Shown here one piece after another: positions 888 through 32,302 of a stretch of DNA of 32,807 nucleotides. Made by a program: the position numbers and the translations under genes. This DNA comes from a virus. The first letter of the stretch is position 1. Each line of letters opens with the position of its first letter. The notes beneath the pieces are model-generated. The model made no database searches. It was given only the letters and a program-made list of their open reading frames with translations, and was not told the DNA's origin. The DNA is taken from positions 1-32,807 of IMG/VR virus record IMGVR_UViG_3300050821_006736; one strand, given 5' to 3'.

Positions 888-3800
888 TAGGTGGTGTGTC
901 CTTCGATTCCTGTGGCTTGGAAGCTTCTATCGCCGCCATTCCAATCTCGTGGTTGCGCTGGCGTGCATCGCGGATTTCGGCAATGAAAGTATCGGCGACA
1001 AAGCGGGCCTGTTCAACGGCCAGTTTCTTGCCGGTTTCCTCGGTTTTGGCAATAATTCCAAGTAATTTTACCTCAAAATCTGCCGAAATCTTACTCATCG
1101 CAATCTCACGATCAGCGCCCTTGTCGTCGAGCGCCTTCATCGCTTGCTGAAGCTGCTGCTGTAGCTGCTTCGACTGCTGTTCGAGGTTCTGGATGAGGGC
1201 CTGGATCTGCGGTGGGATGTCTTTCAGGTCCGGTGTCAGCATGTTCGCCGGAATGGCCTTGGCAAGGCGGGCGGCAATCTTGTCGGAGCCGGGCCAATCC
1301 ATTTCGGCCGCGATCAGGTCCATCACCAGGGCCGCCGTGTTCGGCATCGCCTTGACGAACGCCATCATCGACTCAGCGCCTTCCTGACGCTTGGTCGCAT
1401 AGGACGGGCCGGCGTCGACCGTCACAGCCCATTCGGCGAAACCCGGATTGAAATAGCGCAGGACGCCCTTCGCGCTTTGGTTCTCCTGGTACGAGGAACC
1501 CAGCAGCGGATCGAGGGTGACGTTCTCCTCCTTGCCGTCCATGCCGAGGATGGTGATGATCTGGCGCCGGTTATAGACCTTGGGAATCGCGTCCACGATC
1601 TGTTTGCCGAGGAATTCGAGTGAGCGGCGGAAATTGTCGTAGTAGTGGAATGCGCCGATGTCGGTGCGGCGGCTCAGTTCCCGCAGCGCCTTGCCCGACT
1701 CGTCGAACATGCGCTCCTGCATGGTGGCGTCGAACCGGATGCCCGTCGTCGCCATCATGTTCTGCTGCGACTGCGCGAGCGCCGCGAGGATGCCGGTCGG
1801 TGCGTCGGGCGGAGGAACCCGCTGGGGCGGCGGCGATGGATGTCCGCTCACGTCGGTAGGCTTGTAGGTCAGGGCCGCTGTCGGAAGACGGTTGACATTC
1901 TTCCACTCTTTTTCGTGGCCTTCTAGTTGACCCTCCTCCATTATGTAGTGTGCTTTAGGTGCGAGGGCGACGTGTTCAGTAAGGAACGTGTTGTGGGTTG
2001 GAACCATAGCCTCGCCAGCCAGAAAGAGATGGCTGGGCGTGTCTACCATGATGCACTTAACCGGAACTGACGGAACACGTTCTACGGACTTGATCGTGAA
2101 TCTCTTCGTTCTACGCCATTGCTCCTGGCATCCGTTGAACTGCCTTCCGAGTTGGCGCTCCCTCTTGAACACCGGCATGTCGTACGGGGCGGTGAACGAG
2201 AATTGCCAGAGATCCTGTCCCTGCGAAAAATATGGATTTCCATTGTTGGCAAAGCGCGCCAACCGGCCCTTCCGCTTAAGCGAAACAGCCTTGATTCCTA
2301 GCGACCTGAGAAGCTCGGAAAACCCCTCGGCGAGGAGAGGTGTAATCGTGCTGAAGCTACACTGGCGTTTGATATCAATCGAGCCGTCAGTGTCCATCAG
2401 ACCGTGCAGCAGATCGAGACGCTGATCTCTCGATGCGCGGAGGTAGGACGCCGGAATGTGTTTGTTCCCAAGCAGCCCCATCTCCCGCATGACGCCCTTC
2501 ACGCCATAAACGGTAAATTTCAAAATCCGGTCGCCGTTCCCCCTCGGCTCTCCAGCATCCACACCGCGCCCGAGCAGATGACGCCGAAGCTCATCGATGT
2601 CGTCATCACCGGGGCTTACCTCCGGAACAATCGCATTTCCGTCCCCGAGCCACAGACCGAGAAAATACGGATCGAGCGGAAGATCGCACTCAGGAAGCTG
2701 AAGCGGCTTTGGCGTCATGACGTAATGCGTCTTTGGCCTTAACGCCTTGGTCTGTACCGTCTCGTTGCGCCACTCAAACCCAGCCGATATTCGTCCGGTA
2801 CGCGTCTCGACTGCCCACAGGTGCTCGGCATCGGCCACAATGCTGGAGCCGTCGTCGAACGTGATCCTGTAACACTCTCGGTGGACGTGGACCGGGCTAC
2901 ACCCGAGTACGGTGGCCGGTTCTCCATTCTCATTGAAAACGGTGTGGCCGGCCTCAATCTCGCCCATCGTAGTCCACCCATTTGGAGTGGGAACAGGCGT
3001 ATTTAGGTCTAGTGGAGCCCAATAATTATCCATACGCTGGGCATCTTTGGAGTCACGAATAATCCCGGAGTACGTAACCTTACCTTCTACGTCGATCTCG
3101 TCACCGATCACCTTTACGATCGGAACCCACTTGCCGATCCACTCCTTGCGCTCAAGGATTTCGATGGCGGTGGCCTTGTAATACATGACCGTAGGATCAA
3201 ACCCCTTGCGCTCGTCGAGCACACGGACATCGCCATTTTTCACCCTGCGCGCGGTCACTTCATCCAGTTCGTCGCGCCAACCGACATAGCCGTTGGAGAG
3301 CGAGACGAGTTCGCGCTCCTTCTCGACGATCTCATAATATTCCACGACCCGGATGCCGTCCTTCGTGCTCCAGGTTCGATAGCTCTCGCCACCGCCACCA
3401 ACTTCGAAGGGGATGAGTTGGGCCTTGGGATATTCGAGCTTGAACTGATCCTCGGGGATCATCTCGGCAACGAAGGCAAAGCGGCAATCGGAGCCGTCCG
3501 GCTCTTGGTGGTCGGGGTCAAGGTAGACAGTGAATGGATTGCGCACCCGCTTGATCACTAGCACCTGATCGAAGCTTTTGGGCGACTTCCACTCGGTCAG
3601 CAGGCGCATGTAGCCCCAACCCGAGGTGACGGCATCGTCGAACGAGCTGTCGTAGGCGATGTCGGCGTGGCTGTCCCGCTCGATACGACGGATCATGCCT
3701 TCGATCATCTGCGCCCCCTCCTTGATCGCGCCGGGGCCAAGGGGGCTGATGTTGATCTGGGGGCGGTTCTCGCGCGCCGGGTTGGTGACCTGATGGACGA

Positions 3801-4170
3801 AGGTCTTCATCCGATTGTTGGTCAGGCAGGGGCGGCGGTCGGTGGCGCGTTGGGCGGCGATGTCGGCCGGCCACTGATCGCCCCGCTTGAATTTGCGATC
3901 CTCGACGGCCGGCTTGCGGTTCTCGGCTTCGGCGGCGATGGATCGTTCCAGCCGCTTCCGGAGGCGCTCCAGGATCTCGGAATCAGCTTCGTCTGAGCCT
4001 TTGTCGTCATCCTTCTCGGCGGGGATGTCTGGTCCAACGGTATCGCCTTTGCCCTCAATAGCCCTGTTATTGGGGCCAAGCTTGTTCATACCAGCGGACG
4101 TCTCTGGCAAGGACAGCTTTCCGCTTTTCTTGGCGCGCGGAGGCGGAGGACTAAGAGGCTGATCGACCAT
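862..4170 (-). CDS. P22-like portal protein interrupted by a class 3 intein
   Basis: The precursor is 1102 aa. Removing residues 386-727 leaves a 760-aa portal, close to the P22 portal (725 aa). Portal proteins form the dodecameric DNA-entry ring at one head vertex and dock the terminase. N-extein landmarks are the FKRGDQW and RPCLTNN regions (about 95-120) and NPFTVYLDPD (211-220). The extein junction rejoins DNYWA to TFLTEHVALAPK, a conserved stretch in this family. The C-terminus (about 985-1060) is a Gln- and Lys-rich coiled coil. The ATG overlaps the upstream stop as ATGA. Portal identity is from recognised family sequence; splicing is inferred from intact intein motifs. Confidence 0.93.
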   Translation of the reverse strand: MVDQPLSPPPPRAKKSGKLSLPETSAGMNKLGPNNRAIEGKGDTVGPDIPAEKDDDKGSDEADSEILERLRKRLERSIAAEAENRKPAVEDRKFKRGDQWPADIAAQRATDRRPCLTNNRMKTFVHQVTNPARENRPQINISPLGPGAIKEGAQMIEGMIRRIERDSHADIAYDSSFDDAVTSGWGYMRLLTEWKSPKSFDQVLVIKRVRNPFTVYLDPDHQEPDGSDCRFAFVAEMIPEDQFKLEYPKAQLIPFEVGGGGESYRTWSTKDGIRVVEYYEIVEKERELVSLSNGYVGWRDELDEVTARRVKNGDVRVLDERKGFDPTVMYYKATAIEILERKEWIGKWVPIVKVIGDEIDVEGKVTYSGIIRDSKDAQRMDNYWAPLDLNTPVPTPNGWTTMGEIEAGHTVFNENGEPATVLGCSPVHVHRECYRITFDDGSSIVADAEHLWAVETRTGRISAGFEWRNETVQTKALRPKTHYVMTPKPLQLPECDLPLDPYFLGLWLGDGNAIVPEVSPGDDDIDELRRHLLGRGVDAGEPRGNGDRILKFTVYGVKGVMREMGLLGNKHIPASYLRASRDQRLDLLHGLMDTDGSIDIKRQCSFSTITPLLAEGFSELLRSLGIKAVSLKRKGRLARFANNGNPYFSQGQDLWQFSFTAPYDMPVFKRERQLGRQFNGCQEQWRRTKRFTIKSVERVPSVPVKCIMVDTPSHLFLAGEAMVPTHNTFLTEHVALAPKAHYIMEEGQLEGHEKEWKNVNRLPTAALTYKPTDVSGHPSPPPQRVPPPDAPTGILAALAQSQQNMMATTGIRFDATMQERMFDESGKALRELSRRTDIGAFHYYDNFRRSLEFLGKQIVDAIPKVYNRRQIITILGMDGKEENVTLDPLLGSSYQENQSAKGVLRYFNPGFAEWAVTVDAGPSYATKRQEGAESMMAFVKAMPNTAALVMDLIAAEMDWPGSDKIAARLAKAIPANMLTPDLKDIPPQIQALIQNLEQQSKQLQQQLQQAMKALDDKGADREIAMSKISADFEVKLLGIIAKTEETGKKLAVEQARFVADTFIAEIRDARQRNHEIGMAAIEASKPQESKDTPPNADGSNDQ
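1990..3015 (-). other. Class 3 intein with LAGLIDADG endonuclease, in portal
   Basis: This 342-residue intein is portal residues Pro386-Asn727. Block A is PLDLNTPVPTPNGW, with Pro rather than Cys/Ser at position 1. Block B (441-454) has His450 and Trp452; block F has Cys706 (VKCIMVD); block G is VPTHN followed by Thr728 at +1. Trp at B:12, Cys at F:4 and Thr at G:5 is the signature of class 3 inteins, which splice through the block F Cys and need no nucleophile at position 1. Two LAGLIDADG-type motifs end in FLGLWLGDG (503-511) and LLHGLMDTDG (587-596), with Asp510 and Asp595 intact. The endonuclease therefore looks active. Confidence 0.92.
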
Positions 4171-4364
4171 CAGTTCAGCTTCATATCCGGTTCGTCGGCG
4201 ATGATCTGAATCGCAGTGATGTCGACGCCATCGGGTGGTTCGCCCGGCGGAAGGATGGAATTGACGAGTTCAACGGCGTCATCATGTTTCATGGATTTTG
4301 TGTTCGCGAGCCAATCGAATTCCCGTGGCGAGACATGAAGCGTGACGCCTGACCACCGGCTCAT
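4170..4364 (-). CDS. Small protein upstream of portal
   Basis: This 64-aa protein has no family I recognise. It is mixed in composition with an acidic middle and has no membrane segment. AGGAG lies 7 nt before the ATG. Its stop overlaps the portal ATG (ATGA), so the two are translationally coupled. A neck or head accessory role is possible from position only. Confidence 0.7.
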   Translation of the reverse strand: MSRWSGVTLHVSPREFDWLANTKSMKHDDAVELVNSILPPGEPPDGVDITAIQIIADEPDMKLN

Positions 4365-4397
4365 GGCTAGTCTCCTGTGTCCAGGTCTGCAAATCGG

Positions 4398-4652
4398 TCA
4401 ACCATCGAATAGCAGCCAATGAGGGGAATCATCAATCCAAACGTCGACCGCAATTCCGTGCCCTTTCGCGTATGTCACTTTCGCCTGACGCCCTGTGTAG
4501 TAGATGGGGCATGGCATTTCGATGCTTTCGTTAGGGTGACGCATCGTCATGCAGAACACCCTATGTCCAGCTACCTCCGCTGCGGCAATAATCGTGTCCC
4601 AAAATCTTGGATCAAGAGTGTACGTTTTGTCGTAGTCGATAGATAAGTTCAT
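4398..4652 (-). CDS. HAD-like hydrolase domain protein
   Basis: This 84-aa protein begins MNLSIDYDKTYT. The D-Y-D-K-T near the N-terminus matches HAD motif I (DxDxT), and VWIDDSPHWL near the C-terminus matches the acidic motif IV. The middle (PRFWDTIIAAAEVAGHRVF) fits the Rossmann-like helix and strand after motif I. This suggests a compact phosphatase- or nucleotidase-like domain without a cap; the substrate cannot be told. The ATG overlaps the upstream stop as ATGA, so I chose it over an in-frame ATG 33 nt upstream. Confidence 0.72.
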   Translation of the reverse strand: MNLSIDYDKTYTLDPRFWDTIIAAAEVAGHRVFCMTMRHPNESIEMPCPIYYTGRQAKVTYAKGHGIAVDVWIDDSPHWLLFDG

Positions 4653-4882
4653 ATGTCCAGCGCTTCCCATTCGCGGCCGGAACAATCAGCATACCTAGTT
4701 AGGGGATGCTTGTAACCTCCGACACGGCTCTGATGGCTGGTGGCAACGACTAGACCGAGGATTCGGCCAGCGCCCACGATGCCACATTTGGCAGCATCAC
4801 GGCCGGTGATCTCCAGCCGGTCGGGATAGAAGCCACGCTGTTCCAGTTTTGCGCGGGCGGCAGCGATGGCGTCGATATTCAA
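4649..4882 (-). CDS. Hypothetical protein with TTG start
   Basis: This 77-aa protein is not recognised. It starts MNIDAIAAARAKLEQRGFYP and continues with Gly-rich strands (GIVGAGRILGLVVA). The start is TTG at 4882, preceded by GGAGG about 9 nt upstream and overlapping the upstream stop as TTGA. The downstream gene overlaps by ATGA. It sits in a chain of coupled small genes between the methyltransferase and portal. Confidence 0.65.
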   Translation of the reverse strand: MNIDAIAAARAKLEQRGFYPDRLEITGRDAAKCGIVGAGRILGLVVATSHQSRVGGYKHPLTRYADCSGREWEALDI

Positions 4883-5091
4883 TGCATCTTCCTCCGCTGG
4901 GCTCTGTTAACCGGATGATTGGTCAGCATTTGATCCACCGCACTGATCGCCCGCTGGATCTCGTCCTGCGTCATGCCGATGGGATCGATCGATATGCTCG
5001 CGTTTCGGCCGTGATCGTAGACAACGAATAGGCCGCCCTCGTGAGCGAACAATTCGCGCTCGCCGGTCAGAAGCCAGTCGAATTCGTACAC
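4879..5091 (-). CDS. Hypothetical protein with GTG start
   Basis: This 70-aa protein is not recognised. Visible features are VYEFDWLLTGERELF, FVVYDHGRNASISIDP and an amphipathic helix before NRAQRRKMH at the C-terminus. The frame is open upstream to 5232, but that extension overlaps another frame. The GTG at 5091 follows AGAGGGGG by about 6 nt and lies 17 nt after the previous stop, so I prefer it. Confidence 0.6.
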   Translation of the reverse strand: MYEFDWLLTGERELFAHEGGLFVVYDHGRNASISIDPIGMTQDEIQRAISAVDQMLTNHPVNRAQRRKMH

Positions 5092-5108
5092 CCTGACCCC
5101 CTCTGTGA

Positions 5109-5336
5109 TTAGGGCCAAAATAGCTTCTCCGGATTTGACTCCCGAGCAGCGGCTTCGGGTAATTGGTGGTCCTCCACCCAATCTTTGGCGATAGCCCGTT
5201 TTGTCGGACAGAATCCCCAACTTATCCGACATTCAAACCCATTCCAGTTAGTGGAGATGGGTGCGAAAGCTAATCCGATAGACCAGACCCACCACCCAAT
5301 GCGGTATTGATCCTGACTAATATCATACGCTTTCAT
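5109..5336 (-). CDS. Hypothetical Trp-rich protein
   Basis: This 75-aa protein is Trp-rich (GWWVWSIG, NWNGF, ISWGF) with a charged C-terminus, and has no recognised family. ATG 5336 has only a weak GTGGAA before it; the open frame extends to 5423 through a strong hairpin. It could be a small membrane-associated or structural protein. The call is tentative. Confidence 0.45.
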   Translation of the reverse strand: MKAYDISQDQYRIGWWVWSIGLAFAPISTNWNGFECRISWGFCPTKRAIAKDWVEDHQLPEAAARESNPEKLFWP

Positions 5337-5369
5337 ATTCCACGGAAAAATCGGCAGAAGGAGTCGGTA

Positions 5370-5398
5370 ACCGGGTTCACTTGATCGGTGAACCCGGT
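5370..5398. repeat. Perfect 11-bp inverted repeat (hairpin)
   Basis: ACCGGGTTCAC at 5370-5380 and GTGAACCCGGT at 5388-5398 are perfectly complementary around a 7-nt loop. It lies between the stop of the leftward gene at 5420 and the next start at 5336. No T-run follows in the leftward direction, so it is not a canonical terminator there. An mRNA-processing or stability hairpin, or an operator, is possible. Confidence 0.6.
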
Positions 5399-5419
5399 AC
5401 GTCTTTTGAAGACCAAAAG

Positions 5420-5551
5420 TCATCTAAACACCCACTGCACAAACGCGCCAATCCACATTGCAGCCATCACCATCGCAACTGCTGCGGCGCTACCGAGAAC
5501 GGCGACTACGGCCCACGCGAGGGACCAGCCCATGATTCTTACAGGTGTCAA
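5420..5551 (-). CDS. Small membrane protein with TTG start
   Basis: About 43 aa: a short polar start followed by MGWSLAWAVVAVLG and an Ala-, Val- and Met-rich stretch, giving one transmembrane helix or a hairpin. The TTG at 5551 overlaps the methyltransferase stop (TTGA) with GAGGA about 7 nt upstream; the ATG at 5533 would give 37 aa with no good ribosome site. The function is unknown. Confidence 0.5.
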   Translation of the reverse strand: MTPVRIMGWSLAWAVVAVLGSAAAVAMVMAAMWIGAFVQWVFR

Positions 5552-6066
5552 AGAGCGATCCTCGCCGGCTTCACGACTTGCAGGATGAAGCCGTGGCTGT
5601 GCTCGTTCATATTCCGCATGAACACGATGTCGAAGTCTCCTCGGTACCATGGGCGGTAATCCGTGCGAGGAGGCGTACCGTAATTCGGCTGCACCAGAAA
5701 GCCCAGACTCTCCATCGGGATCACCCTCGTGTGACCAGGATCTCCCCATGCCCATGGGGACTCGGGTCGGGGGCATGAACCGTGGAACAGGCCACCTGGT
5801 TTGAGCACTCGCCAGAAGTCCTCGAATTGCCGAAAGAAGAATCGCCAATCGCCCTGGGTTCCTAGGTGTTCAAGCAATTCGTATGCGTGTATTTCATCAA
5901 ATGTATCGTCATCGAATGGAAGTTTCGGTTCATTTAGATCAAATATCAGATCCGGTTTTAGGTCAGGATTGATATCAATTGTCGTCGGATTTACGTATTC
6001 GTGCGACCCGGTGGTGCTGAGACACTTGGTCTTACGATCGCCACATCCGAGGATTAACTCTCTCAC
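5548..6066 (-). CDS. Class I SAM-dependent methyltransferase
   Basis: This 172-aa protein has motif I LILGCGDRK at the N-terminus (residues 4-12), the acidic DIN at the end of strand 2, and FDEIHAYELLEHL, which matches motifs around strand 4 of Rossmann-fold methyltransferases (Methyltransf_11 type). VLKPGGLFHGS corresponds to the strand 5 region. The substrate is unknown; sugar, small-molecule or base modification are all possible. It overlaps the previous gene by ATGA and lies between the terminase and portal genes. Confidence 0.85.
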   Translation of the reverse strand: MRELILGCGDRKTKCLSTTGSHEYVNPTTIDINPDLKPDLIFDLNEPKLPFDDDTFDEIHAYELLEHLGTQGDWRFFFRQFEDFWRVLKPGGLFHGSCPRPESPWAWGDPGHTRVIPMESLGFLVQPNYGTPPRTDYRPWYRGDFDIVFMRNMNEHSHGFILQVVKPARIAL

Positions 6067-6374: not shown

Positions 6375-6580
6375 ATCACCTCTCCCGGTTCACACCCATC
6401 ATCGATCGCCCGCTGCAACGCCTCGATCGCTTCCTGCTTATCGTTGCGCCACTGAGCGCCGTCGACTTTTTCGATGATCACAAAATACTCCGCGCCGTCT
6501 TCATTGGCCATACTGATGCGGGCTGCGTCGACGCCTAGGACGGGAGACCAGTAGAAGAATTCGCTGATCACGCCATCCAT
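6356..6580 (-). CDS. Hypothetical protein following the terminase
   Basis: This 74-aa acidic protein is not recognised. It has a strand-rich first half and a helical end (KQEAIEALQRAIDDGCEPGE). It starts 13 bp inside the terminase gene, so it is likely coupled to it. It could be a short cytoplasmic accessory protein; there is no motif to say more. Confidence 0.6.
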   Translation of the reverse strand: MDGVISEFFYWSPVLGVDAARISMANEDGAEYFVIIEKVDGAQWRNDKQEAIEALQRAIDDGCEPGEVMWRSNC

Positions 6581-8589
6581 CCAGCCGGATCATCGCTCGC
6601 GCCGTAGCTGCGGTCGGCGGCGGGTCTCACGGTCGCGCGGGGTTCCTCGTAATCAAGCGCTGCTAGGCCAAATGAGTCAGAACCGTGTGAGGAGTTTGAG
6701 ACAAGATAAGCGCGGCCATCATCGCCACGGACGAAATAACATTCATCCCTATCGACGGTGAGATTGTAGGCGGGCTCTAGCTCGGTCTTCTCGCGCAAGT
6801 CGCGCCCGGTCGACCTTAACGCACTCCTTGCTGCATCTCGCGCCGAATTGCTGGTAGCATCCGAATTCCTTCCCGCATACGCGACATATGCAAGTGAATC
6901 GTGGCTCGGACTTGTGCTCGCTACGGTGCTCAAAGATGGGCTTAGCTTCGAAATTGCTTGGATGGTTGTTAAATGGATCTTCATCTGCGTGATGAACTTC
7001 ATAACCCTCCGGTATTTCACCATAAACAGCCTCGTACACCACCCGATGAAGGAGCACGGAACATCGCGATTCCTGGCCTCCGCCCCTAGGGTTGCCGAGG
7101 TAATAGCGTCCTTGAAGCCTAAAGACAGTGTCGCAGACCAAAACCCGAGGATGGTCAGGCCCAAGCTTTCTCGGGTCCAAAATTTTTCCCGGAAGCACGC
7201 ACAGTCGGCCGCCTCTATGAGGCCCCGGCTCGTAAAAAATCGGTGTTCTGGCGTGCACTTCACGCCCCTGACCGTCGCCCATTCGTCTGTCATCCGCACT
7301 ATTCCAGACCGAAGAATGCGGCGCGGTCCACAGGGTGTCAAGACATGATCATGAACAGAGAGATCCTGTACGTTCGTCCAGCCGACTGGGGTCAGCACCG
7401 ACGTGTCTCGGGCCAGACACCAATCGTGTTCTGGCCCCAATCCGATCTGCCGGTTGGCGTCGACCCGTTCGTGATAGGCCCCCAATGCCTCGCGCCCAGC
7501 CTGCGTTGCAGCGTCGTTGAACCAGCAGCGAGGGAACAGGCGGCGGGCGGCCTCGACACGGATCACCGCCGCACCTGGACCGCCGCCTTTGCGCACCCGC
7601 ACCCGGAAGTTGGCTTCCTTCAGGTGGTCGCTGAACTTCTTACCCGTCACGGCATTGCGGTGCGCGCCGTCGTGGGGCAGGACGCATTCGGCCTCGCCGT
7701 GGCCGCGCCGTCGCAGCTCGTTCACGTAGTAGCCCAACGGCTGACCCGACCCTTCGATGTAGTCCATGAATCGAAGCTGCTGGCGGATGCGCTGGGTGAT
7801 CCAGATCGTCATCGCATCGTCGATTCCGATGTCCCAATAGGCCTTGCGCTCCAGCAGGGGGTCATAGGCCAGATCGGTGATGCGGCCTTCCTGCTCGGCT
7901 TGGGCGAGGTGGTTGGCGAAATAGGCGCCGGCGACGACCGTGGCATATGCGCCTTCCCAGACGTGCTGATAGCTCGGCGAGTATTTCAGATCGTATTCGC
8001 GCTCCTCCTTCATTTCCTGTGGGAGGAAAGGGTTATCGCTCCAGTTTGTTTTGACGACAATGGATCTGTCCGGCGGCGGAATTCCGGGTGTACGGAACAG
8101 GGCGTCGACAGCATCCGACTTGCGGTGCGGGTTCCAGGTAAAGATGAGTTTCGATCCCGGCTTCCGGATCGTCGGTCGGAGAAGTTGAAGGCTGCGGGCG
8201 CTCATATTGTGGGCTTCCTCAACCCACACGAGGTCGAATCCCTCATAGGATTTGATGCTCTCGCTCGTCTGATTGTTCATTCCCTGGAAGACGATGCGAC
8301 CGCCGCCAGGGGTGCGGATCTCATCGTCCAAGACACGAAATCCTGGCGCTTTGAACTCCTCGATCTTGTCTTCGATGAGCTGCTTGGCGGACTCCCGCAG
8401 AGCCTTCTGCACCTCACGGGTACAGAGCACGCGGGTTCCGCGCTGCATGAAACTTTGCTCGACAGTGAATCCGGCGGCGAACTGCGATTTGGCGCCTGCA
8501 CGACCGCCGTAAATCCCCGCGTACCGGAATGGCTGTAGGAGCGGTTCGAACACCCTTGCGGTGGGGATGTTTAGCTTCTTTTCGCTCAC
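6568..8589 (-). CDS. terL: Large terminase subunit interrupted by an intein
   Basis: The precursor is 673 aa; without residues 391-632 it is 431 aa, a normal size for this packaging motor. The ATPase domain has Walker A YGGRAGAKS (27-35) and Walker B LVWVEEA (120-126). The nuclease domain has YWDIGIDDA with Asp253, and a C-terminal HDW/SSHGSD motif whose Asp638 is in the C-extein. The intein sits exactly in this motif, so the nuclease site is complete only after splicing. The GTG start at 8589 overlaps the stop of an upstream 9-codon reading frame as GTGA. It pumps DNA through the portal encoded downstream. Confidence 0.95.
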   Translation of the reverse strand: MSEKKLNIPTARVFEPLLQPFRYAGIYGGRAGAKSQFAAGFTVEQSFMQRGTRVLCTREVQKALRESAKQLIEDKIEEFKAPGFRVLDDEIRTPGGGRIVFQGMNNQTSESIKSYEGFDLVWVEEAHNMSARSLQLLRPTIRKPGSKLIFTWNPHRKSDAVDALFRTPGIPPPDRSIVVKTNWSDNPFLPQEMKEEREYDLKYSPSYQHVWEGAYATVVAGAYFANHLAQAEQEGRITDLAYDPLLERKAYWDIGIDDAMTIWITQRIRQQLRFMDYIEGSGQPLGYYVNELRRRGHGEAECVLPHDGAHRNAVTGKKFSDHLKEANFRVRVRKGGGPGAAVIRVEAARRLFPRCWFNDAATQAGREALGAYHERVDANRQIGLGPEHDWCLARDTSVLTPVGWTNVQDLSVHDHVLTPCGPRRILRSGIVRMTDEWATVRGVKCTPEHRFFTSRGLIEAADCACFREKFWTRESLGLTILGFWSATLSLGFKDAITSATLGAEARNRDVPCSFIGWCTRLFMVKYRRVMKFITQMKIHLTTIQAISKLSPSLSTVASTSPSHDSLAYVAYAGRNSDATSNSARDAARSALRSTGRDLREKTELEPAYNLTVDRDECYFVRGDDGRAYLVSNSSHGSDSFGLAALDYEEPRATVRPAADRSYGASDDPAGWMA
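6694..7419 (-). other. Intein in terminase, endonuclease displaced to another frame
   Basis: This intein is terminase residues Cys391-Asn632. Block A is CLARDTSVLTPVGWTNV, block B is GVKCTPEHRFFTSRG with Thr446 and His449, block F is around YNLTVDRDECYFV and block G ends AYLVSN before Ser633. The penultimate residue is Ser rather than the usual His. Between blocks B and F the zero-frame protein (about 464-604) resembles nothing, while the -1 frame of the same DNA encodes an HNH endonuclease. Splicing joins HDW to SSHGSD. The splicing domains look functional, but the noncanonical Ser631 makes this less certain than for the portal intein. Confidence 0.88.
6749..7282 (-). CDS. HNH homing endonuclease nested out of frame in the terminase intein
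   Basis: The open frame is 177 aa, in the -1 frame relative to terL and wholly inside its intein. The recognisable part is about residues 29-163: a strand region with VFRLQGRYYLG, LLHRVVYEAVYG (His79), EGYEVHHADEDPFNN (His97, His98, Asn105/106), then a zinc-ribbon-like C-x-C-x2-C and C-x3-C (Cys131-154). This is the HNH fold of phage homing endonucleases. Residues 1-28 are a shadow of intein block B. Candidate starts are ATG 7282, GTG 7258 (AGGGG 6 nt upstream) and TTG 7180. Either it is a separately translated nested gene, or two compensating indels moved it out of the intein frame. Confidence 0.82.
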   Translation of the reverse strand: MGDGQGREVHARTPIFYEPGPHRGGRLCVLPGKILDPRKLGPDHPRVLVCDTVFRLQGRYYLGNPRGGGQESRCSVLLHRVVYEAVYGEIPEGYEVHHADEDPFNNHPSNFEAKPIFEHRSEHKSEPRFTCICRVCGKEFGCYQQFGARCSKECVKVDRARLAREDRARARLQSHRR

Positions 8590-8625
8590 GGTTTGCTATC
8601 CCGCTTGCCCGCCATGTAGCCGACA

Positions 8626-8724
8626 TCAGCCTCCGAAGAACCACTTGCAGAGCTTCCACCACGCGATGGGTGCAATCACTGCTGTCGCGAGGATGGAAGC
8701 CACGAGCACCCAGACCGGGATCAT
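8626..8724 (-). CDS. 32-aa single-span membrane peptide
   Basis: The peptide is MIPVWVLVASILATAVIAPI followed by AWWKLCKWFFGG: one hydrophobic helix with a basic, Trp-rich C-terminus. AGGA lies about 5 nt upstream and the ATG is 1 nt after the preceding stop. It sits directly before the terminase gene. The function is unknown. Confidence 0.6.
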   Translation of the reverse strand: MIPVWVLVASILATAVIAPIAWWKLCKWFFGG

Positions 8725-8725
8725 T

Positions 8726-19140: not shown

Positions 19141-19265
19141 AACTCACGCCCGTCGCCGCATCGTTCATCCTGACCGTTGGCAGTGCGTGCGCAGTCGCCG
19201 CAGCCCTGTCGACGGTCGCTTTTTGCGTGATGTGGGTGGGATTGAGTTGGGCAGGTGCGATATGA
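19137..19265 (+). CDS. Small membrane protein (42 aa)
   Basis: The product begins MKLTPVAASFILTVGSACAV and runs on as an Ala-, Val- and Trp-rich helix (AFCVMWVGLSWAGAI). One long or two short spans. GTG 19137 overlaps the previous stop (GTGA). Confidence 0.58.
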   Translation: MKLTPVAASFILTVGSACAVAAALSTVAFCVMWVGLSWAGAI

Positions 19266-19278
19266 AAGGGATACCCCA

Positions 19279-19770
19279 ATGCGATATCCCCCGGCTGTCA
19301 TCCCGGATCTCGGGCCGTACCGCCGTATCCTCCGCCGCGAACTCCGGGGCGCGCAGGAATGCCTCTGCCCCTACTGCGGCGGCTGGCTGCCACGCGGCCT
19401 GCGGAACACGCTGAACCCGGAATATCCGACGCTGGAGCATGTGCGCCCGGCTAAGTTCGGTCGCGAGTTCAAGCGCACGCCCGGCGCCAAGTCTGCCCGC
19501 GCCTCTTCCCTCATGCGCAACGCCCTGCTCGTGCATGGCCGATGCAACAAGCGGAAGGACAATCGCGATCCGACCGCCTGCGAACTGATCTGGCTTGAGG
19601 CGGTCAACGTCCAGATCGAATGGTTGTGGCGGCAGATCGAGCGGCAGGCCGAAGCGCTAGACCGCCGCAGCCACTTGCTCACTCTTGCCACCGAACTCGA
19701 CGAGCCAGATGAGATCGCCATTGACCCCGATCCGCTGCTGGGCTGCGAGCCCATGAAGCGCACGGCCTAG
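19279..19770 (+). CDS. HNH endonuclease
   Basis: This 163-aa protein has CLCPYCGGWLP (C-x2-C), YPTLEHVRPAKFG with the HNH histidine, and RNALLVHGRCNKRKDNR followed by DPTACELIWLE. That order (Cys pair, EH, then H-x2-CN-x-K) is the HNH nuclease fold, used by phage packaging-associated, restriction-like and homing nucleases. AAAGGG lies about 8 nt before ATG 19279. The last 114 bp overlap the convergent ATPase gene on the other strand. Its exact role is unknown. Confidence 0.78.
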   Translation: MRYPPAVIPDLGPYRRILRRELRGAQECLCPYCGGWLPRGLRNTLNPEYPTLEHVRPAKFGREFKRTPGAKSARASSLMRNALLVHGRCNKRKDNRDPTACELIWLEAVNVQIEWLWRQIERQAEALDRRSHLLTLATELDEPDEIAIDPDPLLGCEPMKRTA

Positions 19771-26230: not shown

Positions 26231-26260
26231 TTGCAGTCGCCACGCATATCGGCGTATATG
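26231..26260 (+). promoter_or_regulatory. Predicted leaderless rightward promoter with operator, copy 4
   Basis: TTGCAG (26231-26236), 18-bp spacer, TATATG (26255-26260), 7 nt, ATG 26268. ACGC (26242-26245) and GCGT (26252-26255) repeat the palindrome of the other rightward promoters. Confidence 0.62.
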
Positions 26261-26267
26261 ATCGCTT

Positions 26268-26650: not shown

Positions 26651-27342
26651 CCATCACCATCCATCCAGAAGTCATCCAAGGCGAGAATGAGTGGCTAAGA
26701 CTCAGACTCGGCCTTCAAACTGCATCGACCATGGATCTCGTGCTTACTCCTTCGCTAAAGATCGCATCAAACGCGAAGGAAAAGGCGCACATCTACGAAC
26801 TCGTCTCGCAGCGCGTGACTCAGTACGTGGAGCCCCAATTCGTATCTGATGCGATGCTCAGGGGAAAAACCGATGAGATTGATGCCCGCGCCCTCTACCA
26901 CAAAAAGTATGCCAAGGTGCGTGAGGTGGGTTTCATCACCAACGACTGGCTTGGTTTTCCGATCGGATATTCACCAGATGGTCTGGTGGGTGACGACGGC
27001 CTGATCGAAGTGAAATCCCGTCGACAGGCGATCCACATGGAAACGCTTTTGGTCGACGTTCCGGCTCAAACATGCCCGACCGAATTCATGCTTCAGGTCC
27101 AGACCGGGTTGCTGGTATCTGGCCGCAAGTGGTGTGATTTTCTGAGCTATTGCGGCGGATTGCCAATGGCGGTGATCACCGTCGAACCCGATCCCGTCTA
27201 TCAGGAGGCGATCATCGAAGCCGCGGCCAAATTCGAGGCGAGGATCAATGAGCGTGTCGCGCAGTACAAGGCGCTGATGCGGAAACGGAAGATCTGGCGG
27301 TTAACGCCGACTGAGCGGCGGATAATTCAGGAGATGTTTTAG
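26647..27342 (+). CDS. YqaJ/lambda-type recombination exonuclease
   Basis: This 231-aa protein has a RxxRxGxxTAS-like region near the N-terminus (RLRLGLQTAS), GYSPDGLVGDDGLIEVKSR (catalytic Asp111, Glu121, Lys123) and a helical end. This is the YqaJ/lambda Exo fold, a 5'-3' double-strand exonuclease that prepares DNA for single-strand annealing recombination. The partner protein at 28052 lies two genes downstream. The start overlaps the previous stop as ATGA. Confidence 0.88.
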   Translation: MTITIHPEVIQGENEWLRLRLGLQTASTMDLVLTPSLKIASNAKEKAHIYELVSQRVTQYVEPQFVSDAMLRGKTDEIDARALYHKKYAKVREVGFITNDWLGFPIGYSPDGLVGDDGLIEVKSRRQAIHMETLLVDVPAQTCPTEFMLQVQTGLLVSGRKWCDFLSYCGGLPMAVITVEPDPVYQEAIIEAAAKFEARINERVAQYKALMRKRKIWRLTPTERRIIQEMF

Positions 27343-28049
27343 TGACCACAATTCGTGTCGTCGACTTCGAAACAACCGGAATGGAACCGCCAGCCGAAGT
27401 GATCGAAGTGGGATACTGCGATCTTGTGCGGGGCGACGATGGAGAGTGGGGTGAAGATGCTCCACAATCATGGCTGTGCGGTGCAGATAAGATCCCTCCT
27501 GAAACGCGAGCCATTCACCACATTTCGATCGATGAGGTTAGGGGGCTGGAGAGATTCAGCGCAGACGGATTTATCCAATCGTCGATCCATTGTTCCGCCA
27601 TAGCTGCACACAATCTCGATTTCGAGAACAAATGGCTGAAACTTCCGGCGGATATCCCAGCAATCTGCACATACAAATCAGCGCTTCGTGTGTGGCCCGA
27701 AGCTCCATCCCACTCGAATGGGGCGCTGCGATATTGGCTTGAGGATCAGGGGCTTTTGAGTCTGACCCATGACCTAGCCATGCCGCCACATCGGGCAGGA
27801 CCGGACGCCTATGTCACCGCCCACCTCCTGAAGGCGCTCTTTGCGACAGGCGCAACGGGCAAGGATATGGTGGCGTGGACAAAAGAGCCGCGACTTTTCC
27901 CGACCTGTCCGATTGGCGAAAAATGGCGCGGAAAGCCGTGGTCCGAAGTCGATGCCGGATTCCTCGGATGGATGATTCGTCAGCCGACAATGGAAGATGA
28001 TCTGAAATGGAATGCCAATCGAGAGATTGCGCGTAGGCAAGGAGCGTGA
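27342..28049 (+). CDS. DEDDh 3'-5' exonuclease
   Basis: This 235-aa protein has RVVDFETTG (Asp8, Glu10), AAHNLDFE (Asp93) and PPHRAGPDA (His150, Asp155), the four acidic residues plus His of DEDDh exonucleases such as DNA polymerase III epsilon, RNase T or exodeoxyribonuclease X. It follows the recombination exonuclease and likely trims DNA ends or RNA. GTG 27342 overlaps the previous stop (TAGTG). Confidence 0.88.
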   Translation: MTTIRVVDFETTGMEPPAEVIEVGYCDLVRGDDGEWGEDAPQSWLCGADKIPPETRAIHHISIDEVRGLERFSADGFIQSSIHCSAIAAHNLDFENKWLKLPADIPAICTYKSALRVWPEAPSHSNGALRYWLEDQGLLSLTHDLAMPPHRAGPDAYVTAHLLKALFATGATGKDMVAWTKEPRLFPTCPIGEKWRGKPWSEVDAGFLGWMIRQPTMEDDLKWNANREIARRQGA

Positions 28050-28051
28050 CG

Positions 28052-28771
28052 GTGACATCTGACATGAGTCAAGTAATTATCCCTCGCAGCGATCAGCTCA
28101 ATAGTGATGATCTGATCTCTGGTCCTATCACAATACGCATCACCAAAGTTGAAGTACGACCCGGAACTGAACAGCCTGTCTCTATCTTCTTCGAAGGCGA
28201 TAACGGAAAACCATACAAGTGCTGTAAGAGCATGTCGCGCGTGATGGTCAGCGCGTGGGGACCGGATTCATCTGTTTATGCCGGCCGCTCGCTCACCCTC
28301 TTCCGCGACCCCAAAGTGAAGTGGGGCGGGATGGAGGTGGGCGGGATCAGGATCTCGCACATGAGCCATATCACCGGATCGATGACCCTGGCGCTGACCG
28401 AGACCAAGCAGTCACGCAAGCCCTTCACCGTCCAGCCCCTCGCAACCCCCAAAGCCCCAAATCCGCCCGTACAGCCCAAACCCGCGTCTCAGGCCACCAC
28501 CGCCCAGCCTGCACCCACGCCGCCCGCCAGCGAGCCGGAATCGCCCCCTGCCGACGATGATTTCGCCGACCTGGAGCTGTACGGCGACGGAATCGAATTC
28601 ACGATCACCGATGCCACCGATGGGCCGAAGCTGCGGAAGTTCTGGTCGTCGACGATCTCCAACCCGACGTGGGACGAGTTCAAAGCCGCACATGGTCAGC
28701 GATCGAAGGATCTGAAAGCTGCGGCCATGGACAAGATCAAAAAGTTGTCCGAGCCTGTGGAATCGGAATGA
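28052..28771 (+). CDS. Recombination-module partner protein (possible ssDNA-binding)
   Basis: This 239-aa protein has a strand-rich N-terminal domain (DQLNSDDLISGPITIRITKV; VMVSAWGPDSSVYAGRSLTL; KWGGMEVGGIRISHMSHI), a Pro/Ala-rich linker (about 128-165) and a C-terminal helical part. An N-terminal beta domain, acidic/Pro linker and placement after YqaJ and an exonuclease fit a single-strand DNA-binding or annealing protein. Family identity is not certain. AAGGAG is 7 nt before GTG 28052; an upstream GTG (28046) is possible. Confidence 0.62.
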   Translation: MTSDMSQVIIPRSDQLNSDDLISGPITIRITKVEVRPGTEQPVSIFFEGDNGKPYKCCKSMSRVMVSAWGPDSSVYAGRSLTLFRDPKVKWGGMEVGGIRISHMSHITGSMTLALTETKQSRKPFTVQPLATPKAPNPPVQPKPASQATTAQPAPTPPASEPESPPADDDFADLELYGDGIEFTITDATDGPKLRKFWSSTISNPTWDEFKAAHGQRSKDLKAAAMDKIKKLSEPVESE

Positions 28772-28784
28772 AGGAGCGCCGGAA

Positions 28785-29207
28785 ATGATCGAGCACCTAT
28801 CCAGGATTCGTCATCGCATGGGGGCATTCCGCTTCTACGCGCTGTTGTTCGCCCTGATCTGGCTAGCGGTGCTGGCGGCAGTGATTTTCCCGCGGCCGGC
28901 GGATGCGAGCGTGACCAGTTCGCCGCCGCCCCGCCCCGACTGCGGCCAGTTCATGCAAACCCCTGGCGGCGAATGCACCAGCACGCCGAATCAACTTTCC
29001 GAACTCGTGTGGCTTGAGGCGATTGTCGTCATATCCGAGACCGAGGGTGGCGGATTCAAGCTGAACCTGATCACCGATCTGCACCATGACAAGGAAAGCT
29101 GCATGGAGTCCTCGGCGGCTGTCGTGAAGGAAACCCGCACTCAGTTGCCCGACGCCATCATCTATTTCGATGACAACCCCTGTACGGAAGCGGAGGTGGG
29201 GCCGTGA
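28785..29207 (+). CDS. Membrane-anchored or secreted protein
   Basis: This 140-aa protein begins MIEHLSRIRHRMGAFRFYAL with a following hydrophobic helix (LFALIWLAVLAAVIF) and ADA before a Cys-containing outer domain. This is a signal peptide or signal anchor. AAGGAG lies about 8 nt upstream. A cell-surface or lysis role is possible. Confidence 0.65.
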   Translation: MIEHLSRIRHRMGAFRFYALLFALIWLAVLAAVIFPRPADASVTSSPPPRPDCGQFMQTPGGECTSTPNQLSELVWLEAIVVISETEGGGFKLNLITDLHHDKESCMESSAAVVKETRTQLPDAIIYFDDNPCTEAEVGP

Positions 29208-29428
29208 ACACCGTCTGGCTCGTGGTTCTCATTCTGACGTGGCATACCAATCCCCCTAAAATCGATACCGGAACATCATATCCGACCGCCCAGATGTGCG
29301 CCCGGCATCTTGAGCAGGCGGCAGATATTGTGTGCTGCATTCCGATTCACCCAGCCGATCCTTCGCAATATGCAGGCGAAGGCTTCTGTCATAAGCCAAA
29401 GGTCACGCACGGGATTATCGTACCATGA
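29204..29428 (+). CDS. Secreted small protein
   Basis: This 74-aa protein begins MNTVWLVVLILTWHTNPPKI with a short hydrophobic signal-like start and several Cys (MCAR, VCCIP, FCHK). GTG 29204 overlaps the previous stop (GTGA). It is one of four neighbouring exported proteins. Confidence 0.6.
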   Translation: MNTVWLVVLILTWHTNPPKIDTGTSYPTAQMCARHLEQAADIVCCIPIHPADPSQYAGEGFCHKPKVTHGIIVP

Positions 29429-29697
29429 CCCCTTCTGCCATCACGGCGCTGGCGTGCGCCTTGACCCTCGCAGCTTGCGAGCGCCCGGCTCCTGCCCCGG
29501 TTCCGACGCCGCCAGTCCCAACCCCCGCGCCCACTCCCTCCCCGTCTCCATCACCGATCCCGGCGGGGGACGACTGCGCGCCCGGTAAGGGTTGCCGGCC
29601 ATATCCCGGTCTCGTCATGCCGGTCTGCGATCAGGCCAAGGATGCGTGCTGCGTCCCTAGCGACGCTCAGTGTATTGCGAGGCTGCCGAAGCCATGA
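29425..29697 (+). CDS. Proline-rich lipoprotein
   Basis: This 90-aa protein begins MTPSAITALACALTLAACER; LTLAAC is a lipobox, with lipidation at Cys18. A Pro-rich linker (PVPTPPVPTPAPTPSPSPSP) follows, then a Cys-rich domain. It is an outer-membrane-type lipoprotein resembling, in composition, outer spanins, but no partner inner spanin is obvious. Confidence 0.72.
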   Translation: MTPSAITALACALTLAACERPAPAPVPTPPVPTPAPTPSPSPSPIPAGDDCAPGKGCRPYPGLVMPVCDQAKDACCVPSDAQCIARLPKP

Positions 29698-30020
29698 CGC
29701 CCGCCTGTGCCGTCATCGTCGGATGGCTGTTCTGCCCGGTTCATCCGGCGATGCCGGGTGCGGATTGGGGGGTTGGGTCTCCACCGCAACCGCGCGTCTG
29801 CAATAAGCCGCAGGGATGCGAGAGCAATGATCCCGGAGTTCCGGCAGATTCATTCTCGCAACACCCCCTGCCTTGGCATGTGCCGGACGCTCCAGATGAT
29901 TCGGCCTATCAGCGCGACGGGGCGATCTGTTTTGGCGGCAATGCATGGTTCGATAAAGACGGCGTCGTCTACGTTGAACCAGATATGAACTGTCCACCGC
30001 AGAAGAATCCTAAGCCATGA
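29694..30020 (+). CDS. Cys-rich exported-like protein
   Basis: This 108-aa protein begins MTPACAVIVGWLFCPVHPAM and has several Cys with Trp and Asp. It may be exported or membrane linked; no clear signal peptidase site is seen. ATGA overlap with the lipoprotein gene. Confidence 0.55.
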   Translation: MTPACAVIVGWLFCPVHPAMPGADWGVGSPPQPRVCNKPQGCESNDPGVPADSFSQHPLPWHVPDAPDDSAYQRDGAICFGGNAWFDKDGVVYVEPDMNCPPQKNPKP

Positions 30021-30208
30021 CCCCCACCCCCTCCCAGATCGCCGAACTGAAGGCGGCTGGGTACTACGCTAGTGGTCCGCATCGAGCAGGCTGCACTTGG
30101 TACATAATGCACGACAGCGATGGTCTCGCGCATTTCGCCGCAGAAGATGAACCGAAAGCTTGGTCCGCCGCATGGTCTCACTACCAATCCCAAAGGGGTA
30201 AGTCATGA
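30017..30208 (+). CDS. Small TPxQIxxLKAAGY-family protein, copy 3
   Basis: This 63-aa protein begins MTPTPSQIAELKAAGYYASG and ends with AWSAAWSHYQSQRG. It is clearly related to the protein at 12,674-12,862, nearly identical at both ends with a different middle (CTWYIMHDSDGLAHF). It is coupled to its neighbours by ATGA. Confidence 0.68.
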   Translation: MTPTPSQIAELKAAGYYASGPHRAGCTWYIMHDSDGLAHFAAEDEPKAWSAAWSHYQSQRGKS

Positions 30209-30708
30209 CCACAGACACCAAGGCTATGCCCTGTCCGTTCTGCGGTGGTGAACCGTGGTGCCGACTTGCGGCCTATTCCAAGGACGGAACTCCGAGATGG
30301 GCGGTCGGCTGTAACGCTTGCGGCGCGATGACGGGGCCGAAGCTTCAGGCCACTGAAGCCGCGGCCATCGAGCAATGGAACCGGCGCGCCTCGCCATCCA
30401 CTGACCAGACCACGGAAGACGTGATGCAGGCTCTTGCCGATCAGGCCCAAGAACTGAAAATGGGTTACGAAACGGCGGCGGAATCCTGGCCCGACGAGGC
30501 TGCGATCGAGCGGGTTAGCCGAGCGTTAGATCCGCCAAGCCAGTATCCCGGCGAGTCCTTCTGGGATTGGTGGGACCACAGGGCTGACACGATAAATCCA
30601 GACAACCGAGCCCGGCGACAAGTTCACTTGGACAAGGCCCGAGCCGCCTTCCTCGCAGCCGCCGTTCCCTCCCCTTCCAAGCCAGAGAAAGATCAAGATG
30701 CCAACTGA
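30205..30708 (+). CDS. Lar-like restriction-alleviation zinc protein
   Basis: This 167-aa protein has MPCPFCGGEPWCRLAA and VGCNACGAMTGPK, then AIEQWNRR, the CPFCGG...C-x2-C...WNRR pattern of Lar-like proteins. Lar of the Rac prophage eases EcoK restriction. The rest (70-167) is helical. It suits a phage that also carries two DNA methyltransferases. Confidence 0.8.
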   Translation: MTTDTKAMPCPFCGGEPWCRLAAYSKDGTPRWAVGCNACGAMTGPKLQATEAAAIEQWNRRASPSTDQTTEDVMQALADQAQELKMGYETAAESWPDEAAIERVSRALDPPSQYPGESFWDWWDHRADTINPDNRARRQVHLDKARAAFLAAAVPSPSKPEKDQDAN

Positions 30709-30979
30709 GCACATTCTTAAAACCTTCGTCGACTACTGGCGAGCCGTCGAGAGCGGTGAGAAAACGTTCGAAGTTCGCCGCGATGACCGTGGGTTTCAGA
30801 AAGGCGACGTGCTGGTTCTACGTTGCATGGAAAAGAACTTTAGAGGCCATTGGGTGGAAAAGAGACACACCCACGACAACAGTCCATACCAAATTCGCCG
30901 AAAGATCACTTACGTCCTTACCGGCGGACAGTTGGGCATAGAACCGGGCTATGTCGTTCTTGGCCTGAAGAAAGTATGA
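30698..30979 (+). CDS. DUF3850/ASCH-like protein
   Basis: This 93-aa protein has HILKTFVDYWRAVESGEKTF followed by EVRRDDRGFQKGDVLVLR, then ITYVLTGGQLGIEPGYVVLG, the DUF3850 (ASCH/PUA-like) pattern in phage proteins. ASCH domains bind RNA or modified nucleotides. It overlaps the Lar-like gene by 11 bp. Confidence 0.82.
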   Translation: MPTEHILKTFVDYWRAVESGEKTFEVRRDDRGFQKGDVLVLRCMEKNFRGHWVEKRHTHDNSPYQIRRKITYVLTGGQLGIEPGYVVLGLKKV

Positions 30980-31140
30980 AAGTCACCTACCAGGATTGCT
31001 CCGCCTGCGTTAACCGGGTTCTGATCGAGGAAGATCCGGTCAGATGGATATGCAAGGCGCAGGGATTCCTGGTCGGCAACAAGGTCATCAACTGCAAAAA
31101 GTTCAAGCAGAGAAAATCTCTCACTTCAGGTGCGAAATAA
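30976..31140 (+). CDS. Small Cys-containing protein (54 aa)
   Basis: The product begins MKVTYQDCSACVNRVLIEED and has a C-x2-C and a basic end (NCKKFKQRKSLTSGAK). ATGA overlap with the previous gene. Its last 20 bp overlap the end of the convergent leftward gene. Confidence 0.6.
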   Translation: MKVTYQDCSACVNRVLIEEDPVRWICKAQGFLVGNKVINCKKFKQRKSLTSGAK

Positions 31141-32302
31141 AATACACCAGCACCCCTGAGAGCACCGACGACACCAGCCCGACCACCATCAGCATCAGCG
31201 GCATAGACAGGCCATCTCGCCCGCCGTCCGCAGCGGATTGTCTCTCAAGCATCGATAGACGGGCTTCGACAGCCTTGAAATTGGCGTCCACGATTTCGAT
31301 GGTGGCAAACCGGGCCTGCTGATCGCTTACCATTCCGCGCAGCTCGTTCAGGCCCTCTAGCCTTTTTTCTGTGGCCCCCTCTGCTTTGCTGTTATGCATA
31401 CAGAATCCGCCGGCTATATAGGTAGACGTGGAAGTTCCTAGTGTGGCAATTGTGTCGATTCCGGCACCCTCTATGGATGTAACGATTACGTCTCGGTGCC
31501 ACCCCCCAATAGGACGCCCCTCCCATACCGACCTCGCCTTGGCCAATAATCTTTGCGGACGGATGCTTCCAAGAAGGAATAAAATCTCGTTTCTAATATT
31601 TATCTGCCACTCGACGGTTGGTTTTGCGTTTAGCGACAAGCGATAATTTGGTTTTTTATGTATGGTGTGATAAGCGCTAACGCGCTTAGCTAATGATTCC
31701 GAAATTTTATCGCATACGATACCTTCCGTTTGAACCACGCCAAGCCTCGCTCGGCCATTGCGGTCACTTTTAAAGGTTAGGCACCCCTCTCCGTCAAAAA
31801 TTCCGGCAAGCCACCCGGCCTCCCACGAATTATCAACATCCCATACGTCGTAAGCTCTCATAACAGCGTCGCCAACACGTATAAGGCTAGCTTTGACCCA
31901 TCTCCATTTAGAGTCGTGGTCTTGGCGATAAACTAACCATGGATGATCATAGGTACATCTCACAGATCCCGCTTGTGTGTTCACCTGAAGAAGCGGAGCT
32001 TTCTCTATGCCATTTGAAGTGACAATTGCCATTCTGTGTAGCCGACCGCGAGAAGCAATCATTCCGGATTGTCTAGGCGCAGGCTCTTCATCAAAGGCTA
32101 TCAATTCATCCCCAACGGATAGAGATCCCGCCGCCCTCCACACTAAGTCGGCGCATAACACTGGAGTGTCAGACGAAACGCAAACCGCCTTCTCAGCGGC
32201 CTGAAGCGCAATTTCTGCGCGGTCCTTCTGGGCTGAAATTTGCTCGGTGAGACGTAGCGAGAGCGCGTCGATTCTATCACGCGCGATGTCGTCGATTGCC
32301 AC
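31121..32302 (-). CDS. Coiled-coil membrane protein interrupted by an intein
   Basis: The precursor is 393 aa. The N-extein (40 aa) is helical, ending EIALQAAEKAV; the C-extein (89 aa) begins SKAEGATEKRLEGLNELRGM, continues as a coiled coil and ends in a transmembrane helix (MLMVVGLVSSVLSGVLVYFI, about the last 25 residues). Joined, the 129-aa protein matches a common phage family with an AAEKAVSKAE-ATEKR coiled coil and C-terminal membrane anchor, often near tail or lysis genes; its function is not known. GTG 32302 has GGAGCG 6 nt upstream; GTG 32314 is an alternative. It overlaps the convergent gene at 31140 by 20 bp. Confidence 0.88.
   Translation of the reverse strand: MAIDDIARDRIDALSLRLTEQISAQKDRAEIALQAAEKAVCVSSDTPVLCADLVWRAAGSLSVGDELIAFDEEPAPRQSGMIASRGRLHRMAIVTSNGIEKAPLLQVNTQAGSVRCTYDHPWLVYRQDHDSKWRWVKASLIRVGDAVMRAYDVWDVDNSWEAGWLAGIFDGEGCLTFKSDRNGRARLGVVQTEGIVCDKISESLAKRVSAYHTIHKKPNYRLSLNAKPTVEWQINIRNEILFLLGSIRPQRLLAKARSVWEGRPIGGWHRDVIVTSIEGAGIDTIATLGTSTSTYIAGGFCMHNSKAEGATEKRLEGLNELRGMVSDQQARFATIEIVDANFKAVEARLSMLERQSAADGGRDGLSMPLMLMVVGLVSSVLSGVLVYFISHLK
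31391..32182 (-). other. Intein with single-motif LAGLIDADG endonuclease
   Basis: 264 residues, Cys1 to the final Asn, followed by Ser. Block A is CVSSDTPVLC, block B has RCTYDHPWLVY, and the C-terminus is GGFCMHN with the usual His-Asn. One LAGLIDADG motif is clear (EAGWLAGIFDGEGCLT), and FLLGSIRPQRLL matches the conserved later segment of single-motif, dimer-forming enzymes. This differs from the two-motif endonuclease in the portal intein. All splice residues look intact. Confidence 0.92.

Follow-up and report, generated by a model that had tools for sequence, protein, structure and literature searches.

Here, we describe an intein in the gene for the terminase large subunit (TerL) of a tailed phage, encoded on a DNA stretch of 32,807 bases that was taken from an IMG/VR virus record (IMGVR_UViG_3300050821_006736, G000 in our set; hereafter the window). 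Judging from the DNA itself, we consider it very probable that this insert is a mobile element of two genes, in which a protein-splicing domain is combined with a separately translated HNH homing endonuclease gene, overprinted on the linker of that domain in another frame. At the sequence level, we find inteins with empty sites in relatives, intact splicing motifs, two conserved frames under selection, a conserved start codon, recurrence, and horizontal spread. The window holds three independent inteins, in the genes for the portal (1990–3015), TerL (6694–7419), and a coiled-coil membrane protein (31391–32182), and the computed boundaries agree to the base with those given in the initial annotation. 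The latter saw the surprise in three inteins in one phage with an unusual set of hosts and mentioned the out-of-frame HNH in brackets. We abandoned this idea, as inteins in terminases and portals had been known before (PMC5050341, in the part consulted) and the host set is thus less unusual than claimed; the real novelty is the out-of-frame HNH, a conserved overlapping gene that belongs to a wider intein class.

The TerL intein and its nested HNH gene

TerL is encoded by an open reading frame (ORF) on the minus strand (6568–8589; precursor of 673 residues; Pfam Terminase_3, E = 1e-25). Its intein (6694–7419, minus strand; 242 residues) lies at the nuclease motif HDW|SSHGSDS and consists of class 1 splicing blocks around a poorly conserved linker, with Cys1, CTPEHRF as block B, a C-terminal Ser-Asn, and a Ser at position +1. 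The TerL of the close relative L002, 72% identical on the N-terminal side, has an empty site at this position, and the window's insertion is in frame, as it should be for an intein. The predicted spliced junctions of portal and TerL both align with L002 without gaps (NYWA+TFLTEHVALAPK versus NYWATFITEQVALAPK and HDW+SSHGSDS versus HTWASNGADA, respectively).

Using both the HNH and the intein as queries against viral contigs, we collected 11 distinct sequences combining a TerL intein with a nested HNH (the window included), hereafter the window clade. Ten are complete, and one (L049) is cut by a contig end and was used for counting the ATG only. Duplicates (L045, identical to L044; L051, 1 nucleotide from L050; L057, identical to L056) were removed from the counts, as were rows from contigs already represented (L013, L061, L062, L063, L064, and L066, on the contigs of L047, L043, L046, L048, L047, and L049, respectively). 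We further excluded L059 and L068, where the nested HNH is in the +1 phase and the N-terminal intein boundary is not clear, and L034, a methylase in which no intein blocks were seen around the HNH.

Cys1, the TPEH of block B, the terminal Asn, and the +1 Ser are invariant in eight aligned members and are also found in L060 and L065, i.e., in all ten complete copies. These residues bear on the possibility that TerL merely tolerates an extra segment that has lost splicing and carries an out-of-frame HNH, for which the ShiLan domain is a published precedent (PMC11855218, in the part consulted). The penultimate residue of the TerL intein, a Ser and not the usual His, would fit such a loss, but the same Ser occurs in other phage inteins (PMC5050341, in the part consulted). 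Moreover, the insertion is at a conserved nuclease motif, and the C-terminal end diverges far more at third codon positions (0.56) than at the first two (0.10–0.12), which points to selection on the splicing end. Together with the invariant residues, this makes a segment without splicing very unlikely, and a ShiLan-type element (an HNH insertion without splicing domains) was rejected in view of the conserved splicing blocks.

Entirely within the intein lies the nested gene for an HNH endonuclease of 177 residues (6749–7282, minus strand; HNH_3, E = 2e-12), in the +2 (−1) phase relative to TerL. It has the HNH catalytic motif, with the motif His and the first Asn invariant in eight aligned HNH sequences, and its C-terminal end carries a Cys4 zinc-ribbon-like motif. 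The first annotation had correctly noted that the HNH is out of frame; this phase is conserved and not accidental, as it is found in 11/11 sequences, and the in-frame homing endonuclease domain that is typical of inteins (though not obligatory) is thus absent. The eight full-length sequences compared are 67–88% pairwise identical. In the ten complete copies the TerL frame is free of stops and the HNH frame is open, and the third frame has several stops in each copy displayed.

Which of the two frames is selected can be read from the codon positions. Mean pairwise divergence among the ten full-length sequences, at TerL positions 1/2/3, is 0.33/0.23/0.56 upstream of the HNH ATG, 0.15/0.44/0.21 in the HNH core (where position 3 of the HNH frame is position 2 of TerL), and 0.12/0.10/0.56 downstream of the HNH stop. 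The variation thus tracks the TerL frame before the ATG, the HNH frame in the core, and the TerL frame again past the stop. As the third positions of the HNH frame are the most variable in the core, the HNH protein is under selection. In the overlap near block B, over HNH codons 10–35, divergence at TerL position 3 is 0.24, versus 0.56 elsewhere (rank test, p = 5e-8, with sites taken as independent). Both frames are selected and the start is conserved, which is what characterizes an overlapping gene. A relic, i.e., an intein endonuclease that decayed through two frameshifts or was displaced by sequencing or assembly errors, is highly improbable in this light: two indels would give the picture seen in the window taken alone, and metagenomic contigs do have errors, but 11 distinct sequences and three annotated phage genomes have the identical arrangement, and the variation peaks at HNH-frame third positions, both of which speak against it. 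On these comparisons the out-of-frame HNH is an intact overlapping gene, and neither decay nor a sequencing error.

The nested start, an ATG (7280–7282, minus strand), overlaps the intein codons for (E/K/Q)-Trp and is kept in 11/11 sequences, though the TerL codon can be that of E, K, or Q. In the TerL N-exteins, 201 of the 672 E/K/Q codons (30%) end in A, and the ATG would be conserved by chance with a probability of 1.7e-6, a figure that takes the sequences as independent although they are related. This start is also informative about programmed frameshifting, by which ribosomes would leave the TerL frame for the HNH frame and produce a fusion of the N-terminal TerL and intein parts with the HNH. 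The −1 phase of the HNH and a T6 run (dual-coding FF/FY) conserved in the overlap would suit slippage. An X-XXY-YYZ heptamer is not shared, however (1/11 only), the ATG is conserved more than the TerL frame requires, and some distant members have a Shine–Dalgarno site at the nested start; we consider frameshifting very unlikely.

In the mechanism that we favor, the TerL frame encodes N- and C-terminal splicing segments joined by a linker, and this linker is what results when the HNH gene, kept without stop codons, is read in the TerL frame. The splicing domain would excise itself to leave an intact terminase, and translation starting at the internal ATG would give the HNH protein as a product of its own. 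By cutting intein-free terL genes, the HNH protein may then allow the element to spread between phages. Several observations weigh against this two-gene element. Hint/intein Pfam matches among the eight aligned TerL-intein members are weak (Hint_2 at best, 1.6e-5), and structure models of the intein and HNH products are poor (mean predicted local distance difference test scores of 42 and 50). Upstream of the nested ATG no Shine–Dalgarno sequence was found in the window clade. The TerL frame is stop-free in all eight sequences tested of this clade (with 0.8–1.8 stops expected in each), but in so GC-rich (guanine plus cytosine) a clade an open frame in any one sequence would be no great surprise (P of 0.13–0.38). 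Finally, the nested-HNH sequences are mostly metagenomic, three being annotated phage records.

Distant relatives and spread between phages

Out-of-frame nucleases inside inteins were also found in 14 more distant cases, 13 of which have an HNH in the +2 phase, at GC contents of 31–65%. When all frames were viewed for the distant intein matches L050–L059 (10 loci), each had a nuclease-like ORF in another frame; without L051, L057, and L059, seven remain, namely six with an HNH in the +2 phase and one (L055) with a DUF559-type nuclease in the +1 phase. Searching from the nuclease side gave 28 HNH matches outside the window clade, five of which overlap an ORF of more than 800 residues in the same relative phase. 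Four of these are inteins (by our reading of the hosts, in three TerL-like ORFs and one tail protein with an NlpC/P60-like motif) and one is methylase-like. Eight of ten nested ORFs submitted to Pfam match HNH_3 (7e-12 to 4e-18), and the pair L050/L056 shows the switch in codon phase too. Three named phages carry the nested HNH in TerL (Acinetobacter phage vB_AbaM_Highwayman, Tetrasphaera phage TJE1, and Rhodobacteraceae phage LS06-2018-MD07), and their annotated records show only a terminase large subunit at this locus.

In the distant cases the host frame is free of stops in 14/14, those rich in adenine and thymine (AT) included, with 0.9–8.9 stops expected in each (computed from the nuclease protein and the codon use of the exteins) and a probability of an open frame per case that ranges from less than 1 in 3,000 to 0.37; for many of these distant members the chance-open test is strong. 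Such openness is hard to reconcile with the insert being a group I intron that houses an HNH gene, is spliced as RNA, and leaves the TerL frame open by chance. What such a reading has in its favor is that phage genes often contain group I introns with free HNH genes; none of the results obtained here supports it. No Rfam match was obtained at E ≤ 1 in 6500–8700, no intron match reached the gathering score in 18 sources, and the flanks are under TerL-frame protein selection and carry intein motifs. For want of a conserved ribozyme the intron was rejected, and we rate its probability as close to negligible.

Shine–Dalgarno pairing at the nested start was assessed in 12 of the 14 distant cases (L028, without a clear start codon, and L055 were left out) and is strong, i.e., within the lowest 3% of random positions, in four of them (L022, L052, L053, and L161).

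Some neighbors of this class differ in their details. In L055 an intein-like insert (4131–5084) holds a nested ORF of 318 residues for the DUF559-type nuclease, and so another nuclease in another phase. L059 and L068 (Actinobacteria bacterium OV450) show an ORF of 1315 residues with a C-terminal intein end and an unclear N-terminal boundary, in which a zinc-finger plus HNH ORF of 384 residues is nested in the +1 phase. In L034 an out-of-frame HNH (3836–4423) lies in the methylase-like ORF with no intein blocks to be seen on either side, as in ShiLan, and an apparent intein start is located further downstream. The TerL of Microcystis phage Mic1 (L012, MN013189.1; 952 residues) apparently has two inteins, a large one with LAGLIDADG-like motifs and a small one, over which no out-of-frame ORF of at least 60 residues was found. 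In bacterial and archaeal genomes, a search with the A1 alignment gave no relative, and one with the intein alignment gave only the mini-intein L067, without a recognized nested nuclease, and L068.

Between the window and seven others (these identities cover eight of the ten full-length sequences), TerL is 39–48% identical, compared with 62–69% for the HNH and 63–78% for the splicing segments. Conversely, the TerL proteins of L042 and L046 are 98% identical, and their splicing segments and HNH only 83%. Both contrasts indicate that the element was transferred horizontally.

As to the origin of the element, a free-standing HNH adjoins the terminase genes of Acinetobacter phage BP10 (TerL of 469 residues) and shares 50% identity with the HNH nested in the TerL of Highwayman. 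The two phages are not a before-and-after pair, as their TerL proteins are only distantly alike (27% identity over 201 residues). In Lactobacillus phage CL2 and Brevundimonas phage Poludnitsa an HNH directly follows TerL. Free-standing HNH genes may thus have invaded inteins out of frame, and a collaborative homing of free-standing nucleases with introns has been described (PMC10448857, in the part consulted). We lean, if only slightly, toward a broader picture in which inteins with nested, separately translated, and overprinted nuclease genes form a widespread, mostly overlooked architecture among phages. In that picture they would have arisen repeatedly, as free-standing HNH genes located next to packaging genes inserted themselves, out of frame, into inteins, and the resulting elements would be the missing intermediates in the acquisition of homing endonucleases by inteins. 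The +2 phase would be favored because it is the only one in which the host frame runs through the nuclease gene with hardly any stops.

The other two inteins and their phage

The genes of the window fit a tailed phage with a P22-type portal, with portal, TerL, scaffold, exonucleases, and a helicase-like gene. An ORF with a weak HNH match (19255–19770, plus strand; phrog_338, E = 7e-5) overlaps the helicase-like ORF antisense, at its end. With megablast, window bases 1–25,000 matched no close nucleotide relative among annotated phages. A second assembly of the same phage (L073, IMGVR_3300021479_000188) extends beyond the right end of the window at base 32807, and the window is therefore not a complete genome.

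The portal protein (862–4170, minus strand; precursor of 1102 residues with its intein) matches Pfam P22_portal in two stretches (E = 6e-148). Its intein (1990–3015, minus strand; 342 residues) is supported by the computed boundaries, by the empty site in the L002 portal (754 residues, without insert, 64% identical to that of the window), and by alignment to 6BS8. It has a LAGLIDADG_3 match (Pfam, E = 4e-5) and, by eye, two LAGLIDADG motifs. With Pro1 and hence no nucleophile at the first position, Trp in block B, Cys in block F, and Thr in block G (motifs AEHLW, KCIMVDTP, and PTHN), the portal intein has the features of class 3. Both splicing halves align with the solved DnaB intein 6BS8, which we take to be a class 3 intein, and W, C, and T are in register. 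This class is defined by its Trp-Cys-Thr triplet (PMC5050341, in the part consulted), and the portal intein is like its known members in the W/C/T positions and in lacking a nucleophile at position 1; it differs from them in its host, a P22-type portal, and its splicing is predicted. If the portal and TerL inteins both splice, DNA packaging would be gated by two splicing events. A segment related to the portal intein (39% identity over query residues 496–629) recurs in the TerL ORF of L047 (IMGVR_3300005544_000104; 1037 residues), which seemingly contains two inteins, this second segment and one of the nested-HNH type.

The third intein (31391–32182, minus strand; 264 residues; computed boundaries) is of class 1 (Cys1, HN|S) and interrupts a coiled-coil protein with a C-terminal transmembrane segment (31121–32314, minus strand; precursor of 397 residues), delimited from the ORF listing and intein-free family members. 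It shows a single LAGLIDADG-like motif by eye, which Pfam did not call. The initial annotation had assigned a different nuclease arrangement to each of the three hosts, and this stands, with LAGLIDADG_3 in the portal (4e-5), HNH_3 in TerL (2e-12), and the motif seen by eye in the third. The third intein is closest to the portal intein of a Gordonia phage and to terminase inteins of Mycobacterium phages (32–33% identity over 68% of the query).

Against phages, neither the C-extein of the coiled-coil protein (at E ≤ 1) nor the joined extein (at E ≤ 0.01) had a match, and therefore a DNA motif scan for KAExATEKR was used, which picked 80 loci. In about 70 of these 80 pattern-selected loci (counted by eye) the site is uninterrupted; the nearest reads AAEKAVV-KAEAATEKRFEGLNELR. 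The empty sites foreseen in relatives are thus found for all three inteins, at the portal and TerL sites in L002 and at the third site in these loci, and neither L002 nor the coiled-coil family carries the inserted segments as ordinary domains. The coiled-coil membrane protein is one of a large family in phages that shares a strongly conserved motif (EKAVxKAExATEKRFExVNEFR) and for which PHROGs and Pfam gave no informative match. At the window end that bears the third intein, 3,684 bases recur without a difference in a second assembly, and the identical intein sequence is present in the second assembly L072.

Known systems and meaning

Inteins are taught as a single polypeptide, consisting of a splicing domain with an embedded endonuclease domain. 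Canonical inteins (with an in-frame LAGLIDADG or HNH) share with the TerL element the splicing blocks, the insertion at a conserved site, and a homing nuclease within the element. They differ from it in that the TerL-intein nuclease is a separate overlapping gene and the polypeptide linker its frame-shifted reading. In fractured genes with split inteins, a free-standing nuclease lies between the halves; these are alike in associating a separate nuclease gene with an intein, whereas the TerL intein is contiguous and overlapped by the nuclease gene.

A 2025 preprint by Gosselin et al. (actinobacteriophage inteins of non-canonical architecture) and the 1998 paper Non-canonical inteins by Gorbalenya reportedly may, by title and citation context, describe related cases. 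In the literature searched, outside of which these two works lie, we came across no account of a splicing intein in which a nuclease gene is nested out of frame. Both are cited for overlapping frames in PMC11855218 (in the part consulted, as for all that follows from this source), which describes the ShiLan domain and the Pacc40 insertion as out-of-frame HNHs in phage methylase genes. Its authors see no self-splicing domain in ShiLan, neither intein nor intron. Like the TerL element, ShiLan and Pacc40 hide an HNH in the alternate frame of an insertion that is open in the frame of the phage gene, spread, and have no obvious ribosome site (PMC11855218). Unlike them, the TerL element is an intein, bounded by splicing blocks at its N- and C-terminal ends, resides in packaging genes, and has a conserved ATG instead of a GTG (PMC11855218).

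In short, the endonuclease of the TerL intein would be a second gene, written over the linker of the splicing polypeptide in another frame, and for that reason it escapes annotation. Such a nested nuclease could be made without TerL and could be gained or lost without any change to the fold of the splicing domain. These elements would also provide natural examples of two unrelated proteins encoded by one stretch of DNA. How inteins acquire homing endonucleases is a long-standing question, and the natural pairs of free-standing and nested HNH genes may make it directly testable.

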